Below, piece by piece: positions 5,629-40,070 of a stretch of DNA of 64,000 nucleotides. The number at the start of each line of letters is the position of its first letter. The stretch's first letter is position 1. The notes under the pieces were generated by a model that searched no databases, had not been told where the DNA came from, and saw nothing but the letters and a program-made list of their open reading frames with translations. A program made the translations under genes and the position numbers. Source of the stretch: Streptomyces albofaciens JCM 4342 (lineage in GTDB: Bacteria > Actinomycetota > Actinomycetes > Streptomycetales > Streptomycetaceae); contig NZ_PDCM01000002.1 in assembly GCF_008634025.1 (NCBI RefSeq), positions 3,745,001 to 3,809,000 on the forward strand, written 5' to 3'.

Positions 5629-6554
5629 GCGAGGGCACCGGGGGCGCGGGAGGCCCACGAGGAACGGAAGGCACGGAAGGCACGGGAGGCACGGGAGGCA
5701 CGGGAGGTGCCGGGGATGCGGCACCGGCCGGCAGCCGGCTCGCGGCCCGGGACCTGACCCTGGCCTACGACGACCGCACGGTCGTCGAGGGGCTCGACCT
5801 CGATATCCCGCACGGCGCGGTGACGGTCGTCGTCGGCCCCAACGCCTGCGGCAAGTCCACGCTGCTGCGGGCGCTCGGCCGGCTGCTCGCACCGCGCCGC
5901 GGCGCCGTCCTGCTGGACGGCACGGACCTGGCCCGCATCCCCACCAAGAAGATCGCCCAGGCCGTGGGGCTGCTGCCGCAGACCCCGGTGGCCCCCGAGG
6001 CGATCACCGTCGCCGACCTGGTCTCCCGCGGCCGCCAGCCGCACCAGCGCTGGTGGCGGCAGTGGTCCGAGGCGGACGAGCGGGCCGTCGCCGAGGCCAT
6101 GGCCCGTACGGACGTGACGCGGCTGGCGGACCGGCCGGTGGACGAACTGTCCGGCGGGCAGCGGCAGCGCGTGTGGATCGCGATGGCGCTCGCCCAGGAG
6201 ACCGGCCTGCTGCTCCTGGACGAGCCGACGACGTACCTGGACATCGCGCACCAGGTCGAGGTGCTGGACCTGATACGGCAGCTCAACCACGACCGGGGGC
6301 GCACCGTCGTCGCCGTCCTGCACGACCTCAACCAGGCCGCCCGCTACGCCGACCACCTGGTGGCGATGAAACAGGGCCGGATCGTCGCACAGGGGCACCC
6401 GTCGGCGGTCGTCACGGCCGGGCTGGTGCGGGAGGTGTTCGGGCTGGAGTCGGTGGTCGTACCGGATCCGGTGACGGGCTCGCCCCTGGTGGTCCCGGGG
6501 CGGCCTTGGCAGGCTCCGGGCGGAGGGTCCACGGTCGTTCCCGAGCCGGGTTAG
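5625..6554 (+). CDS. ABC transporter ATP-binding protein for iron-siderophore import
   Basis: A FepC-type ATPase of about 309 aa. It has Walker [10 protein letters not shown] (about residues 72-80), signature LSGGQRQR (about 174), Walker [13 protein letters not shown] (about 194) and the H-loop [16 protein letters not shown]. It powers import through the two preceding permeases. The start is the GTG at 5625, overlapping the previous stop. The first 40 residues are an odd Gly/Thr/Glu-rich tract ([18 protein letters not shown]) encoded by 9-bp tandem repeats. This tract is not part of the ABC fold and is probably disordered. Confidence 0.94.
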
Positions 6555-6614
6555 GACCTGTCGGCGACAGGGCCCGGCCGTCCCGTACGCCCATTCCTGC
6601 CGAAAGGGCCCGTC

Positions 6615-7715
6615 ATGCCGCTCTCCGCAGTTCCCCGTACGGTTCCGTGGACCGGGCGCCGCCGCGCCGGGTGCCGCCGCGCCACCCGCGCCGCGGCCAC
6701 CGCCGTGACCGGCGCCCTGGCCGCTTCCCTGACGCTGGCCGCGTGCGGCTCGGGCGGCTCCGGCGGCCCGTCCGGAACGGGGGGTTCCGGCGCCTCGGCC
6801 AAGCCCGCCGACTGCCCGGCGCAGCCGACCACGACCTGGGCGAAGCCCGTTCCGGGCAAGGGCACGCACCGGGTGCGTACGGCGCGGGGCGAGGTGACGG
6901 TGCCGAACCGGCCGCGGCGGGTGGTCGTCCTGGACACCGCGGAGCTGGACTCCGCGATCACGCTCGGGGTCACCCCGGTCGGCGCCACCCGCTCCGACGT
7001 GGCCGGCGGATTCCTCGGCTACCTGCCCAAGGAGAAGGTCGCCGGCATCAAGGACGTGGGAAAGATCGGCGCCCCGAACCTGGAGGCGGTCGCCGCACTG
7101 AAGCCGGACCTGATCCTGACCAGCGCGGTGCGCGACGGCAAGCGGTACGAGCAGCTGAAGGCCATCGCGCCCACGGTCATGACGGAGACCACCGGCTACC
7201 CGTGGAAGCAGAATTTCGCCACCCACGCCGACGCGCTCGGCAGGATCCCGCAGGCACGGCAGGCGGCCGCCGCGTACGAGGCGCACGCCGGGCGGGTCAC
7301 CGCGGCACTCGGCGGGGCCGCGGCGGCGAAGCGGACCACGACGAACGTCGTCCGCTTCGTCGAGGGCGCCGACACCCGCGTCTACGGCTGCCGCAGCTAC
7401 ATCGGCACGATCCTGAACGACATCGGCACCGGCCCGACCAGCGTGGTGCAGAACGCGCGGGACGGCCTGATGATCGAAGTCAGCGCGGAACAGCTGAACG
7501 AGGCGGACGCGGACGCGCTCTTCTACACGGCCTACGGCAGCCCGGAGAAATCCCAGGAGAAGCAGGTCACCGGCGGGGCGCTGTGGAAGAACATGCGGGC
7601 GGTCAGGAACGGCCGGGCCTTCCGCGTCGACGACGAGCTGTGGATCCAGGGGATCGGCTATACGGCGGCGGGCAAGATCTTGGACCAGGTGCAGGAAAAG
7701 CTGGCGAAGGAGTAG
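6615..7715 (+). CDS. Siderophore-binding lipoprotein of the iron ABC transporter
   Basis: An extracytoplasmic class III binding protein (FecB/FhuD type) of 366 aa. An Arg-rich N-terminus leads to a hydrophobic helix and a lipobox ending LTLAAC, with Cys44 as the lipidation site. The mature part contains the FecB signatures RPRRVVVLDTAELDSAITLG and PNLEAVAALKPDLILTS. It follows the ATPase by 60 bp and completes the importer. The exact siderophore is unknown. The downstream region carries G-rich repeats and a hairpin. Confidence 0.93.
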   Translation: MPLSAVPRTVPWTGRRRAGCRRATRAAATAVTGALAASLTLAACGSGGSGGPSGTGGSGASAKPADCPAQPTTTWAKPVPGKGTHRVRTARGEVTVPNRPRRVVVLDTAELDSAITLGVTPVGATRSDVAGGFLGYLPKEKVAGIKDVGKIGAPNLEAVAALKPDLILTSAVRDGKRYEQLKAIAPTVMTETTGYPWKQNFATHADALGRIPQARQAAAAYEAHAGRVTAALGGAAAAKRTTTNVVRFVEGADTRVYGCRSYIGTILNDIGTGPTSVVQNARDGLMIEVSAEQLNEADADALFYTAYGSPEKSQEKQVTGGALWKNMRAVRNGRAFRVDDELWIQGIGYTAAGKILDQVQEKLAKE

Positions 7716-32767: not shown

Positions 32768-34525
<1,758 letters not shown>

Positions 34526-34922: not shown

Positions 34923-35126
34923 TCAGCCGGCCACGCGGACCATGTCCGCCTGCGGCCCTTTCTGGCCCTGCGAGATCTCGAACTCGACCCGCTGACCCTC
35001 CTCAAGGGTGCGGTAACCGTCCATCTGGATCGCGCTGTAGTGGACGAAAACATCCGCACCACCGTCGACCGCGATGAAGCCGTACCCCTTCTCCGCGTTG
35101 AACCACTTGACGGTGCCCTGAGCCAT
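34923..35126 (-). CDS. Cold-shock protein (CspA family)
   Basis: A 67-aa single-domain RNA chaperone. The RNP1 motif is KGYGFIAV and RNP2 is VFVHYSAI, in [20 protein letters not shown]. The start at 35126 is preceded by GGGGAGTTAGGC, while the longer frame from 35156 adds leader sequence. A leader of about 100 nt and a candidate promoter lie upstream. This is the standard short type, unlike the 127-aa protein at 1820-2203. In Streptomyces it sits next to groEL2. Confidence 0.95.
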
Positions 35127-35237
35127 GCCTAACTCCCCTATTACTGGCCCTTGCACAGGACCGCACTCCGCGGACCCGGGTCAGACCTCACCCCCCGACA
35201 GGAGGGGGTGTGCGCCGGAACGCGTCGACCGCCGCTG

Positions 35238-35468: not shown

Positions 35469-35508
35469 GGAATCGCCCCGTCCGCTTCGCGGTGGACGGG
35501 GCGATTCC
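35469..35508. terminator. Strong hairpin downstream of the thrC-like/carrier operon
   Basis: GGAATCGCCCCGTCC and GGACGGGGCGATTCC are perfect 15-bp arms around a 10-nt loop. On the minus strand the tail reads GTGTTGTTAAAGG, moderately U-rich. Confidence 0.75.
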
Positions 35509-35583: not shown

Positions 35584-35862
35584 TCAGCAGCCGCCGGCCA
35601 CCGCCGGGATGATCGAGACGCCCGCGCCGTCCGGCGTCGGGGTCTCCAGGCCCTGCTCGAAGCGCACGTCGTCGTCGTTGACGTAGACGTTCACGAAGCG
35701 GCGCAGCTTGCCGGTGTCGTCCAGGACGCGTGCCGCGATGCCGGCGTGGTTCTTCTCCAGGTTCTGGATGACCTCGGAGAGGGTCGCCCCTTCGGCGGGC
35801 ACCTCGGCCCGGCCGCCGGTGTAGGTGCGCAGGATGGTCGGGATGCGGACGTTGACGCTCAT
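35584..35862 (-). CDS. MoaD/ThiS/CysO-like sulfur carrier protein ending in Gly-Gly-Cys
   Basis: A beta-grasp protein of 92 aa: MSVNVRIPTILRTYTGGRAE, then GATLSEVIQNLEKNHAGIAARVLD, FVNVYVNDDDVRFEQGLETP and a C-terminus of IIPAVAGGC. The diglycine tail is the site where sulfur carriers are activated as thiocarboxylates. Here one Cys follows it and would have to be removed, for example by a JAMM protease such as Mec. It is 64 bp downstream of the thrC-like gene in the same SAM-riboswitch operon, so a role in homocysteine or methionine sulfur transfer is likely. CysO-type cysteine synthesis is the alternative. Confidence 0.9.
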   Translation of the reverse strand: MSVNVRIPTILRTYTGGRAEVPAEGATLSEVIQNLEKNHAGIAARVLDDTGKLRRFVNVYVNDDDVRFEQGLETPTPDGAGVSIIPAVAGGC

Positions 35863-35926
35863 GGTGTTCTGCCTTCCAGGTCGCGGGAGGAGTGGGCGGA
35901 GGGACGGGCGGACCGGGGTCCGGCGG

Positions 35927-37216
35927 TCAGCCCGCCAGGCCGGCCGCGCGGAACGCGTCCAGGCTCGGCCGGATGGTGGCCGTGGGCCCGGTGGTCGGCG
36001 CGACCGCGTCCAGCGTCTTGAGCCCGTCGCCGGTGTTCAGCACGACGGTGGTCAGCGCCGGGTCGAGCAGGCCGTTCTCGATCAGCTTCTTGGTGACGCC
36101 CACGGTCACACCGCCGGCGGTCTCCGCGAAGATGCCCTCCGTACGGGCCAGCAGCTTGATCGCGTCCACCACCTGCGCGTCGTTGACGTCCTCGACCGCG
36201 CCGCCCGTACGCCGGGCGATGTCGAGCACGTACGGGCCGTCGGCCGGGTTGCCGATGGCCAGCGACTTGGCGATGGTGTCCGGCTTCTGCGGCCGTACGA
36301 CGTCGTGACCGGCCTTGAAGGCGGTCGAGACCGGCGAGCAGCCCTCGGCCTGGGCACCGAAGATCTTGTACGGCCGGTCCTCGACCAGTCCGAGCGCGAT
36401 CAGCTCCTTCAGACCCTTGTCGATCTTCGTGAGCTGGGAGCCCGACGCGATCGGGATGACGATCTGGTCCGGCAGCCGCCAGCCGAGCTGCTCGCAGATC
36501 TCGTACGCGAGGGTCTTGGAGCCCTCGCCGTAGTACGGGCGCAGATTGACGTTGACGAAACCCCAGCCCTCGCCGAGCGGGTCGCCGATCAGCTCGGAGC
36601 AGAAGCGGTTGACGTCGTCGTAGGTGCCCTCGATGCCGACCAGCTCGCCGCCGTAGACCGCGGCCATGACGACCTTGCCCGCCTCCAGGTCGTGCGGGAT
36701 GAAGACGCAGGAGCGGAAGCCGGCGCGGGCCGCCGCGGCGCCCACCGCGCCGGCCAGGTTGCCGGTGGAGGAGCAGGACAGGGTGGTGAAGCCGAAGGCG
36801 CGGGCGGCCTCGACGGCGATGGCGACGACGCGGTCCTTGAAGGAGTGCGTCGGGTTGCCGGAGTCGTCCTTGACGTACAGGCCGCCGGTGACGCCCAGCT
36901 CACGGGCCAGGTTGTCGGCCTTGACGAGCTTGGTCAGGCCCGGGTTCAGGTTGGGCTTGTCCGCCACGTCGGCCGGGACGGGCAGCAGCGGCGCGTACCG
37001 CCAGATGCTGTTCGGGCCCGCCTCGATGCGCTGGCGCAGGCCCTCGGGGTCGCCGGCCGGCAGGTCGTACGCCACCTCCAGCGGACCGAAGCAGGCCGCG
37101 CAGGCGAAGATCGGGCCGAGGTCGAAGCGCTCGCCGCACTCGCGGCAGGACAGCGCGGCGGCGGGGCCCAGGGAAACAGTGGGGCGGGTGGTGCTTTCAG
37201 CAGACTGCACAGCCAT
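35927..37216 (-). CDS. Threonine synthase-like PLP enzyme under a SAM riboswitch (possible homocysteine synthase)
   Basis: This fold-type II PLP enzyme has 429 aa. An N-terminal zinc ribbon has CRECGERFDLGPIFACAACFGP (about residues 25-46). The PLP lysine is in NPTHSFKDRV (about 120), with the phosphate-binding SCSSTGNLAGAV (about 141). It is annotated threonine synthase by homology, acting on O-phosphohomoserine. Three facts suggest another product: the leader is a SAM-I riboswitch, the next gene is a sulfur carrier, and no hom or thrB is nearby. Using the same substrate with carrier-bound thiocarboxylate would give homocysteine. The ATG at 37216 follows AAAGGG at 10 nt. Confidence 0.88.
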   Translation of the reverse strand: MAVQSAESTTRPTVSLGPAAALSCRECGERFDLGPIFACAACFGPLEVAYDLPAGDPEGLRQRIEAGPNSIWRYAPLLPVPADVADKPNLNPGLTKLVKADNLARELGVTGGLYVKDDSGNPTHSFKDRVVAIAVEAARAFGFTTLSCSSTGNLAGAVGAAAARAGFRSCVFIPHDLEAGKVVMAAVYGGELVGIEGTYDDVNRFCSELIGDPLGEGWGFVNVNLRPYYGEGSKTLAYEICEQLGWRLPDQIVIPIASGSQLTKIDKGLKELIALGLVEDRPYKIFGAQAEGCSPVSTAFKAGHDVVRPQKPDTIAKSLAIGNPADGPYVLDIARRTGGAVEDVNDAQVVDAIKLLARTEGIFAETAGGVTVGVTKKLIENGLLDPALTTVVLNTGDGLKTLDAVAPTTGPTATIRPSLDAFRAAGLAG

Positions 37217-37233
37217 GGAGGCGAGGCCCTTTC

Positions 37234-37393
37234 TCCTCATCTTCCTCGCGGCGCATCTCGCCACGAGACGGAATTGGCACCTTCCCTAGCCGGGAGCCTC
37301 GCGGGCCGCGTGCGATGCCGCGGCGACGGAGACCGGCTGGAGGGTTGCCGGGGCTTCAACGGGCCGTATCCCTCTGCCCCTCTGGATGAGCGG
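37234..37393 (-). ncRNA. SAM-I (S-box) riboswitch
   Basis: Read on the minus strand, the leader has every conserved block of SAM-I: CTCATCCAGAGGGGCAGAGG, GGCCCGTTGAAGCCCCGGCAACC, then a variable P3 arm, AAGGTGCCAATTCC, a P4 hairpin TCTCGTGGCGAGA and the closing GAGGAAGATGAGG. P1 pairs CTCATC (37390-37385) with GATGAG (37241-37236). The closing strand ends only a few bases before the AAAGGG ribosome site and about 20 nt before the ATG. No U-tailed terminator is visible, so control is probably translational. Confidence 0.93.
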
Positions 37394-37555: not shown

Positions 37556-38503
37556 GTGCTGCAAGAGGTGGAGCGCTGGCTGGGCAGCCGGTCCTGGTCG
37601 GCCGCCGACCGCCCGCTCGACCGGCTGCTGGCCGCCAGGCGCGAGACGGGGCAGACGGTCTCCGTCGTGCTGCCGGCGCTCGACGAGGAGGCGACGGTCG
37701 GCGCGATCGTCGAGACGATCCGCACGGAACTGATGACACCGTCGGTGCCGCTCGTCGACGAGCTGGTGGTGCTGGACTCCGGGTCCACGGACGGCACGGC
37801 CAAGGTCGCGGCCGAGGCGGGCGCGCGGGTGGTCCACCGGGACGAGGTGCTGCCGCGGCTGCCCGCGCTGCCCGGCAAGGGCGAGGTGCTGTGGCGCTCC
37901 CTGCTGGCCACCCGCGGTGACATCGTCTGCTTCATCGACGCCGACCTGCGCGAGTTCTCCGCCACGTTCGTCTCCGGGATCGTCGGCCCGCTGCTGACCG
38001 ACCCGGGCGTGCAGTTCGTCAAGGGCATGTACGACCGTCCGCTGGGCGAGGCGGCCGGACAGGGCGGCCGGGTCACCGAGCTGGTCGCCCGCCCGCTGCT
38101 GAACCTGCACTGGCCGCAGCTGGCCGGGTTCGTGCAGCCGCTGGGCGGGGAGTACGCGGCCCGCAGGTCCCTGCTGGAGCGGCTGCCGTTCCCGGTGGGG
38201 TACGGCGTGGAGCTGGGCCTGCTGGTCGACGCGCTGCACACGGCCGGGCTGGACGCGCTGGGCCAGGTGGACATCGGCGTACGCAAGCACCGCCACCAGG
38301 GCGGTCAGGCGCTCGGCCGGATGGCCGCGGCGATCTACCGCACCGCGCAGCTGCGGCTGGCGCGCGGCCATCTGGTGCGCCCGCGGCTGACCCAGTTCGA
38401 GCGCGGCGAGGCCGGTTTCGTACCGCGCACCTGGGACGTGGACACCGAGGAGCGGCCGCCGATGGCGGAGATCCCGGAGTACGCGGAGCGGCGCGCGGCC
38501 TGA
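37556..38503 (+). CDS. gpgS: Glucosyl-3-phosphoglycerate synthase (GT81)
   Basis: A GT-A glycosyltransferase of 315 aa, transferring glucose from a nucleotide sugar to 3-phosphoglycerate. The nucleotide site is VSVVLPALDEEATVGAIVETI (about residues 40-60), then LVVLDSGSTDGT (about 78), LPALPGKGEVLWRSL and the DxD motif CFIDADLREF (about 127-133). GGEYAARRSLLERLPFPVGYGVELGLLVDA is acceptor-site sequence of this family. The GTG at 37556 has AAGGAG eight bases upstream. It heads a plus-strand pair with otsA, consistent with compatible-solute metabolism. Confidence 0.9.
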   Translation: MLQEVERWLGSRSWSAADRPLDRLLAARRETGQTVSVVLPALDEEATVGAIVETIRTELMTPSVPLVDELVVLDSGSTDGTAKVAAEAGARVVHRDEVLPRLPALPGKGEVLWRSLLATRGDIVCFIDADLREFSATFVSGIVGPLLTDPGVQFVKGMYDRPLGEAAGQGGRVTELVARPLLNLHWPQLAGFVQPLGGEYAARRSLLERLPFPVGYGVELGLLVDALHTAGLDALGQVDIGVRKHRHQGGQALGRMAAAIYRTAQLRLARGHLVRPRLTQFERGEAGFVPRTWDVDTEERPPMAEIPEYAERRAA

Positions 38504-38609: not shown

Positions 38610-40070
38610 ATGGTCTCCGAGCGTTCTGGTGCCCAGGTTCTCGTCGCGTCCAACCGCGGCCCGGTGTCGTACACGAAGGGGGACGACGGCGCGCTCACCG
38701 CCAAACGGGGCGGTGGCGGGCTGGTCTCCGGCCTCTCCGCCATCGGGTCCGACGCCGGGGCGGTGTGGGTGTGCGCCGCCCTCGGGGACGGCGACCGCGA
38801 GGCGGCCCGGCGCAGCGGCGGCCACCTGGACACCGCCGACACGGGCGGCCAGCACGTACGCATGCTGGACATCCCCGCCGAGGTCTTCACCGACGCCTAC
38901 AACGGCATCGCCAACTCGGTGCTCTGGTTCGTCCACCACATGCTCTACCAGACGCCCCTGGAGCCCTCCTTCGACGAGGCGTTCCGCGCGCAGTGGGCGT
39001 CGTACGAGGCGTACAACGCGGCCTTCGCGGACGCGCTCGCCGACGAGGCCGCGCCCGGCGCCGTGGTGCTGGTGCAGGACTACCACCTCACGCTGGTGCC
39101 GGGCCTGCTCCGGGCCCGCCGCCCCGACCTGCGCATCGGGCACTTCTCGCACACGCCGTGGGCGCCCGCCGACTACTTCCGCATGCTGCCGGACGACGTG
39201 GCCGAGGCGGTGCTGCGCGGGATGCTGGGCGGCGACCGGGCGGCGTTCCTGACCCGGCGCTGGGCCGAGGCGTTCGCGGACTGCTGCGCGGCGGTGCTGG
39301 GCGCCGGGGTGGCGCGCGACGCGGACGGGGAGCTGAGCGTCACGCACGAGGGCCGGACGACCCGGCTGGGCGTGCACGGCCTGGGCGCGGACGCGGAGTT
39401 CCTGCGGGAGCGGGCGCACCGGCCGGACGTGGACGAACGGCTGGCGGCGCTGCGCGAGCAGATCGGCGGCGAGGACCGCAAGACGATCGTGCGGGTGGAC
39501 CGTACGGAGCTGTCGAAGAACATCGTGCGCGGGCTGCGCGCGTACCGGGCGCTGCTGGCCGGCCACCCGGAGTGGCGCGAACGGGTCGTGCACATAGCGT
39601 TCGCCTACCCCTCCCGGCAGGACCTGGAGGTCTACCGCGCGTACACGGACGAGGTCGGGCGGCTGGCCGAGGAGATCAACGCCGAGTACGGCACCCCGGG
39701 CTGGCAGCCGGTCGTGCTGCACGTGAAGGACGACTTCGCGCGGTCGCTGGCCGCCTACCGGCTCGCCGACGTGGCGCTGGTCAACCCGATCAGGGACGGC
39801 ATGAACCTGGTCGCCAAGGAGGTCCCGGTGATCTCGGAGCGGGGCTGCGCGCTGGTGCTGTCCCGGGAGGCCGGGGCGTACGCGGAGCTGGGCGACGACG
39901 CGTTCTGCGTCAATCCGTACGACATCACGGGCACCGCCCGCGCCCTGCACGAGGCGCTGTCCCTGGAGGACGGCGAGCGGGCCGAGCGCACGAAGCGGCT
40001 GGCCGCGGCGGCCACCGCGCTGCCGCCGGACCGCTGGTTCCTCCAGCAGTTGCAGGCGCTGGAGCGGTAG
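38610..40070 (+). CDS. otsA: Trehalose-6-phosphate synthase OtsA
   Basis: A GT20 glycosyltransferase of 486 aa, making trehalose-6-phosphate from a nucleotide glucose and glucose-6-phosphate. Signatures are VASNRGPVSY (about residue 12), NGIANSVLWFVHHMLY (about 98), VQDYHLTLVPGLLR (about 153), HFSHTPWAP, RTELSKNIVRGLRAYRALL (about 299) and NPIRDGMNLVAKE (about 391). The ATG at 38610 is the family start. It converges on otsB with 33 bp between stops. Confidence 0.95.
   Translation: MVSERSGAQVLVASNRGPVSYTKGDDGALTAKRGGGGLVSGLSAIGSDAGAVWVCAALGDGDREAARRSGGHLDTADTGGQHVRMLDIPAEVFTDAYNGIANSVLWFVHHMLYQTPLEPSFDEAFRAQWASYEAYNAAFADALADEAAPGAVVLVQDYHLTLVPGLLRARRPDLRIGHFSHTPWAPADYFRMLPDDVAEAVLRGMLGGDRAAFLTRRWAEAFADCCAAVLGAGVARDADGELSVTHEGRTTRLGVHGLGADAEFLRERAHRPDVDERLAALREQIGGEDRKTIVRVDRTELSKNIVRGLRAYRALLAGHPEWRERVVHIAFAYPSRQDLEVYRAYTDEVGRLAEEINAEYGTPGWQPVVLHVKDDFARSLAAYRLADVALVNPIRDGMNLVAKEVPVISERGCALVLSREAGAYAELGDDAFCVNPYDITGTARALHEALSLEDGERAERTKRLAAAATALPPDRWFLQQLQALER

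Follow-up and report, generated by a model that had tools for sequence, protein, structure and literature searches.

The 64,000-nucleotide stretch of Streptomyces albofaciens JCM 4342 DNA analyzed here (hereafter, the window) contains a compact locus in which a riboswitch of the S-adenosylmethionine (SAM)-binding SAM-I class is followed by metM, a gene for a pyridoxal phosphate (PLP) enzyme that resembles threonine synthase (ThrC), and metO, a gene for a small sulfur carrier protein. The features, in gene order, are as follows:

37234..37392, minus strand: SAM-I (S-box) aptamer (RF00162)
37217..37233, minus strand: 17-nt spacer with the ribosome-binding region, from the aptamer end to the start codon (sequence)
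35927..37216, minus strand: metM, ThrC-like PLP enzyme with an N-terminal Cys4 ribbon, 429 amino acids; homocysteine synthase by assignment
35584..35862, minus strand: metO, CysO/ThiS-type sulfur carrier, 92 amino acids, C-terminus GGC (PF02597; clade apart from CysO)
about 35469..35508, minus strand: strong hairpin 3' of metO, probable transcript end (sequence and fold)

The aptamer matches the full length of the RF00162 model (positions 1-108) at 71.9 bits (E 7.6e-15), above the family's gathering score of 44.4, carries 50 nt at one site where the family consensus has 6, and is the sole SAM-I match in the entire 9.25 Mb genome. The two genes are separated by 64 nt and, given that a strong hairpin (at least 15 bp, -36.4 kcal/mol, z -5.7) follows metO, the operon appears to consist of metM and metO only. 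A preliminary description of this DNA had placed the locus at 35584-37393, which is correct to one base, and had recognized, in an operon limited to two genes, a textbook SAM-I leader, a ThrC-like PLP enzyme and a MoaD/CysO-type carrier; all three elements are borne out by the searches reported here.

The same description had proposed that the operon provides a route to homocysteine from O-phosphohomoserine, mentioning tentatively a recent report of such a route in Streptomyces. The report does exist: Hasebe et al. (2024, Appl Environ Microbiol 90:e01247-24) identified the Streptomyces homocysteine synthase MetM, as cited in PMC12172450, an article published in 2025 that, judged by titles and term counts, is the only one in our literature search that deals with MetM. 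According to the available excerpt of PMC12172450, MetM converts O-phosphohomoserine to homocysteine and prevents methionine auxotrophy in Streptomyces albulus, where metM is preceded by a SAM riboswitch; the excerpt also assigns a gene resembling metO of S. albulus to the sulfur-carrier family. The window locus has in common with this system the ThrC-like PLP enzyme, the sulfur-carrier gene and the upstream SAM riboswitch and, as far as the excerpt goes, no difference in these described features is known. The proposed route is supported by both this literature and the gene content of the host genome, and we put the probability that the window locus encodes the homocysteine pathway published for MetM-MetO at roughly 0.94. 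The system as such is already known and the window presents one of the published kind; what our analysis adds is the coupling of metM to SAM-I in every sampled genome that carries the gene, the replacement of specific residues in MetM, and the existence of lineages that lack metO and possess CysO.

MetM belongs to PF00291 and scores 265.9 bits with the thrC model TIGR00260 (cut-off 167.1); its scores with the other threonine synthase models listed stay below the respective cut-offs, as does its score of 38.7 bits with the cysteate synthase model TIGR03844 (cut-off 324.9). Cysteate synthase and Alistipes CapA2 (9k3c) act on a different substrate. The closest database proteins (best 120 of 8000 scored) are 88-93% identical, come mostly from Streptomyces and are nearly all named "threonine synthase". 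When the ThrC of the same genome is taken as the reference, Thr95 is replaced by Leu, Arg167 by Tyr and Asn195 by Ser in 36 of 36 MetM rows, and Ser162 by Asn in 35 rows and by Thr in one, with the PLP lysine (K127) retained throughout. We take these positions to be the counterparts of Thermus Thr88, Ser155, Arg160 and Asn188, presumably the residues of threonine synthase that contact the substrate phosphate; in the pairwise alignment, three of the positions map onto the Thermus residues and Ser155 lands in a gap. A literature search on the phosphate-contact residues of ThrC turned up no paper. Compared to ThrC (TIGR00260; solved structures 1uim/1v7c, 2d1f, 2zsj and, from a plant, 2c2b), MetM differs in these four positions, in its SAM-I control and in the accompanying carrier gene, and contains an invariant Cys4 ribbon that the ThrC of the host genome lacks. 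The structural model of MetM used here was predicted from 30 sequences (predicted local distance difference test score, pLDDT, 85.3; predicted template modeling score 0.87), after a single-sequence model with a pLDDT of 36.6 was dropped. None of the 50 structural matches listed for this model is to CysM or CysK, an observation that excludes nothing. A third ThrC-like protein is encoded at L003 (G000:C2:353350-354597), in a 418-codon open frame with one stop flagged within the matched range; it shows 30% to MetM and has N-terminal cysteine pairs and an NPTGSHKDR motif.

The gene content of the host genome (9.25 Mb in two contigs, 99.99% complete), like the anatomy and the conservation of the locus, is established directly by our analysis. 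A separate hom-thrC-thrB stretch (L021), in which all three genes pass the NCBI models, was found elsewhere in the genome, in agreement with the expectation of the preliminary description, so that the second thrC for which it suggested a search exists in canonical form. The search for metA that it also suggested yielded no MetA match in this genome, and the best MetX match reached only 27.4 bits compared to up to 449 bits in relatives. Three near-full-length and two partial matches to the PLP enzymes of cysteine and methionine metabolism exceed the family cut-off; of the three, the first passes a model for cystathionine gamma-synthase, the second a model for cystathionine gamma-lyase and the third neither. 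Furthermore, the genome encodes a single Prok-JAB peptidase, located about 4.5 kb from the cysO-cysM cluster (L020), and one strong ThiF-type E1 enzyme (285 bits) whose frame, inspected by eye, continues into a rhodanese-like end, a layout that we take to be that of MoeZ; one more match to ThiF, weaker at 62.5 bits, is also over the cut-off. The presence of hom-thrB, the E1 enzyme and the JAB peptidase together with the lack of detectable MetX and MetA thus implies substrate supply and plausible sulfur loading without the usual acylhomoserine entry.

We surveyed 393 genomes of the class with at least 90% completeness, using thresholds of E <= 1e-80 for metM, E <= 1e-50 for MetX and E <= 0.001 for SAM-I; the weakest of the metM matches scored 4.2e-116 and, with nearly the same query, the ThrC of the host scored 5.5e-43. 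The metM gene was detected in 243 genomes (75 of 122 genera), MetX in 251, and SAM-I in 260, 258 of them above the family score. Every one of the 243 genomes with metM contains a SAM-I match. MetX is present in 108 of these genomes versus 143 of the 150 without metM, such that 386 genomes have metM or metX and only 7 have neither. Since related genomes do not represent independent observations, counts are given without probabilities (Fisher values were left unused). Within the window's own genus, metM and SAM-I are found in 44 of 44 genomes and MetX in 8; the missing acylhomoserine route is accordingly a property of the host genome that is not universal even within the genus. MetA was identified in 6 of the 393 genomes, including two (G069 and G250) of the seven that lack metM and MetX. 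In the other five (G007, G010, G071, G180 and G370), neither metM nor MetX nor MetA was detected with the thresholds applied; these genomes could be auxotrophs, assemblies with gaps or users of another route. The genomes with SAM-I and no metM are G002, G021, G027, G056, G071, G226, G233, G243, G250, G258, G274, G293, G318, G325, G332, G336 and G380, among which G250 has MetA and no MetX.

At the level of individual loci, metM is immediately preceded by SAM-I in all 35 loci of a diverse set, which was hand-picked, non-randomly, across 25 family codes with the exclusion of L126 (a 100-base placeholder with guessed coordinates). A scan of named genomes yielded a best 80 loci, all from Actinomycetota by title except for one unverified Bacillus sp., and in each of the 20 that were tested, SAM-I is located upstream of metM, within about 90 bases of it. 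The set of 80 is skewed in favor of the sequence that heads the query alignment, which is a metO-less one.

The window carrier matches PF02597; among solved structures, its best relatives are 4n6e, a member of the ThiS/MoaD family, and chain C of 3dwg, which we take to be mycobacterial CysO. In the Mycobacterium CysO-CysM-Mec system, the chemistry is analogous, with a phosphorylated amino acid, a PLP enzyme and a thiocarboxylated carrier, and CysM makes cysteine. The host genome encodes cysO-cysM in a separate cluster (L020), apart from metM-metO, and MetO and CysO form separate clades (support 97/100); the window carrier, which is outside the CysO clade and not near cysM or mec, is thus not CysO. 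The metO gene adjoins metM in 30 of 30 loci from the same genus (L033-L062, the window's own included) and in 27 of the 35 diverse loci, with two genomes common to both sets. Among the same-genus loci, the C-terminus of MetO (window 35587-35595, minus strand) is GGC in 14, including the window, and GG in 16, suggesting that the requirement for trimming differs among close relatives. The CysO of the host (L020, about 6435-6740) has an 11-residue tail after the Gly-Gly; across 12 relatives, the CysO tail varies from absent to several residues long.

The eight diverse loci without metO beside metM belong to genomes G008, G012, G058, G073, G082, G019, G105 and G169, in each of which CysO adjoins mec and cysM. 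No MetO-clade carrier was found in these genomes among the ThiS-family matches examined, that is, all except one weak match in G058, three in G073 and two in G012; at 1e-4, the other opened matches do not match MetO or CysO, the one exception being a divergent carrier of G012 (L156; 41% to MetO). Four comparison genomes with metO (G014, G036, G055 and G309) encode MetO beside metM and CysO beside cysM. Among the best named loci, 72 of 80 contain no metO within the locus sequence, two of them (L169 and L207) having hardly any sequence past metM; by title, the metO-less loci are mainly from Micromonosporaceae, Glycomyces, Geodermatophilaceae and Frankia. Five changes of the metO-less label are required on the MetM tree (at least three as judged by well-supported branches), and hence metO was gained or lost more than once.

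Several observations weigh against the assignment of the window locus to homocysteine synthesis. MetM passes the NCBI equivalog model for thrC, and its predicted fold is that of threonine synthase, which is uninformative on the nucleophile. SAM-I is present in 17 of the 150 genomes without metM, and the coexistence of metM and metX in 108 of 243 genomes implies that the route is not always the sole one. The 500-bit cut-off of the MetX model was reached by none of the 393 genomes and none of the 14 controls, for which reason MetX was counted by E-value. A cyanobacterial homologue that, in the excerpt of PMC12172450, is 51.6% identical to S. albulus MetM, adjoins a metO-like gene and has no SAM riboswitch, produced threonine and 2-oxobutyrate in vitro (threonine synthase/deaminase); with sulfide, it gave only an unidentified peak, and methionine did not rise in vivo. 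The homocysteine synthase function should therefore not be transferred to all relatives. The thrC model, the predicted fold and the activity of the cyanobacterial enzyme would all suit a second threonine synthase, with the carrier belonging to another pathway and the riboswitch balancing threonine versus methionine. We reject this as very unlikely, considering that a canonical thrC with hom and thrB resides elsewhere in the genome, that all four presumed phosphate contacts are replaced throughout the MetM rows, that without MetM no other entry to homocysteine was found in the host, MetX and MetA being absent, and that SAM-I accompanies metM wherever the gene occurs in the survey. Furthermore, in S. 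albulus it is MetM that averts methionine auxotrophy, according to the excerpt of PMC12172450.

Plants combine O-phosphohomoserine with cysteine, according to the portion of PMC13257386 at hand, and a plant-like transsulfuration could be envisaged for the host, in which a gamma-synthase joins these two compounds and MetM merely modulates the pool. A cystathionine gamma-synthase gene is indeed present, with 680 bits against the 513-bit cut-off of the equivalog model PRK07811, which is another point against our assignment; the supplier of the usual substrate of this enzyme, MetX or MetA, was not found in the host genome. Enzymes of the PRK07811 type are known to work with acylhomoserine or in the reverse direction, and such a scheme leaves both the carrier gene and the riboswitch of the metM locus unexplained; we regard it as scarcely credible. 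In the S. albulus work, as excerpted in PMC12172450, homocysteine synthesis is assigned to MetM. A different alternative retains MetM as the homocysteine synthase and has it use free sulfide or some other donor in vivo, MetO being optional. The 8 hand-picked and 72 named loci without metO (the latter from a set biased to a metO-less query) are compatible with this proposal, as are the eight metO-less genomes that have CysO and no MetO-clade carrier among the matches examined; we nevertheless consider it unlikely, given that metO adjoins metM in every same-genus locus and that MetO forms a clade of its own, which implies that it is maintained for its own use.

Under the MetM-MetO assignment, the simplest reading of the metO-less loci is that MetM accepts CysO, with free sulfide as the alternative. 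The chances that MetM needs no carrier of its own, and that CysO serves it in the metO-less genomes examined, seem to us about even. If this is the case, a single thiocarboxylate pool supplies both cysteine and homocysteine and, in G008, G082 and G019, three of the eight metO-less genomes that also have no MetX and no MetA, a CysO-fed MetM is the only discernible route to methionine. Literature searches on CysO with homocysteine listed nothing on point. The metO-less lineages, in which CysO is the candidate carrier, may be new.

By combining these observations with the published work, we propose the following scheme. ThrB (homoserine kinase) would produce O-phosphohomoserine. The extra C-terminal Cys of MetO would be trimmed, probably by the JAMM peptidase Mec, and a MoeZ-type E1 enzyme would activate the exposed Gly-Gly end to yield the thiocarboxylate; MetO is reportedly thiocarboxylated and acts as the sulfur donor. 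MetM would then use PLP to strip the phosphate from O-phosphohomoserine, as threonine synthase does, and add the thiocarboxylate sulfur at C-gamma, instead of water at C-beta as in threonine synthase, after which hydrolysis would release homocysteine for methylation to methionine. When SAM is abundant, SAM-I would shut the pathway off, most likely by hiding the ribosome-binding site, given the 17-nt distance between aptamer and start codon. For the host strain, we infer the trimming by Mec, the activation by MoeZ, the identity of the nucleophile and the translational mode of control.

The direction of control, namely shut-off by SAM, follows that of SAM-I riboswitches in general. No terminator-like site was found on the same strand in the window leader, where the 17-nt spacer leaves no room for a terminator, and in all 35 relatives the start codon follows the aptamer at a distance of 6-18 nt; the starts were chosen by us, as several loci contain an alternative in-frame start within the aptamer, and the first plausible start 3' of the aptamer was used. 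Regulation is therefore likely to act on translation. The folding energies of the window leader are ambiguous, with near-equal values when P1 is enforced (-88.9 kcal/mol) or not (-89.1 kcal/mol), and an alternative small hairpin places the ribosome-binding region in a loop; these energies neither prove nor refute the direction of control. Searches for SAM-I translational control in Actinobacteria listed no literature on point.

In the window, metO is followed by a cold-shock gene (34923-35156) and groEL (32768-34393). One or both of these genes are found downstream of metM, within the sequence range around the locus, in 21 of 35 diverse and 36 of 80 named loci, some of which are metO-less. The divergent neighbors are a family 2 glycosyltransferase (37556-38503), presumably of the glucosyl-3-phosphoglycerate synthase type, and a family 20 glycosyltransferase (38610-40070), presumably of the trehalose-phosphate synthase type. 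Two other metM loci are flanked by cyclic di-AMP and thiamine pyrophosphate riboswitch matches (L096 1-135 and L125 1-99, respectively), which are truncated by the locus end.

The MetM-MetO system shows how bacteria that possess neither MetX nor MetA can make methionine. In 243 of the 393 sampled genomes, a gene that passes the standard model for threonine synthase is probably one of methionine synthesis. As the riboswitch accompanies every one of these genes, we suggest an annotation rule for the class, by which a ThrC-like gene preceded by a SAM-I aptamer is taken as metM. The metO-less loci, in turn, pose a directly testable question, namely, which carrier supplies MetM.
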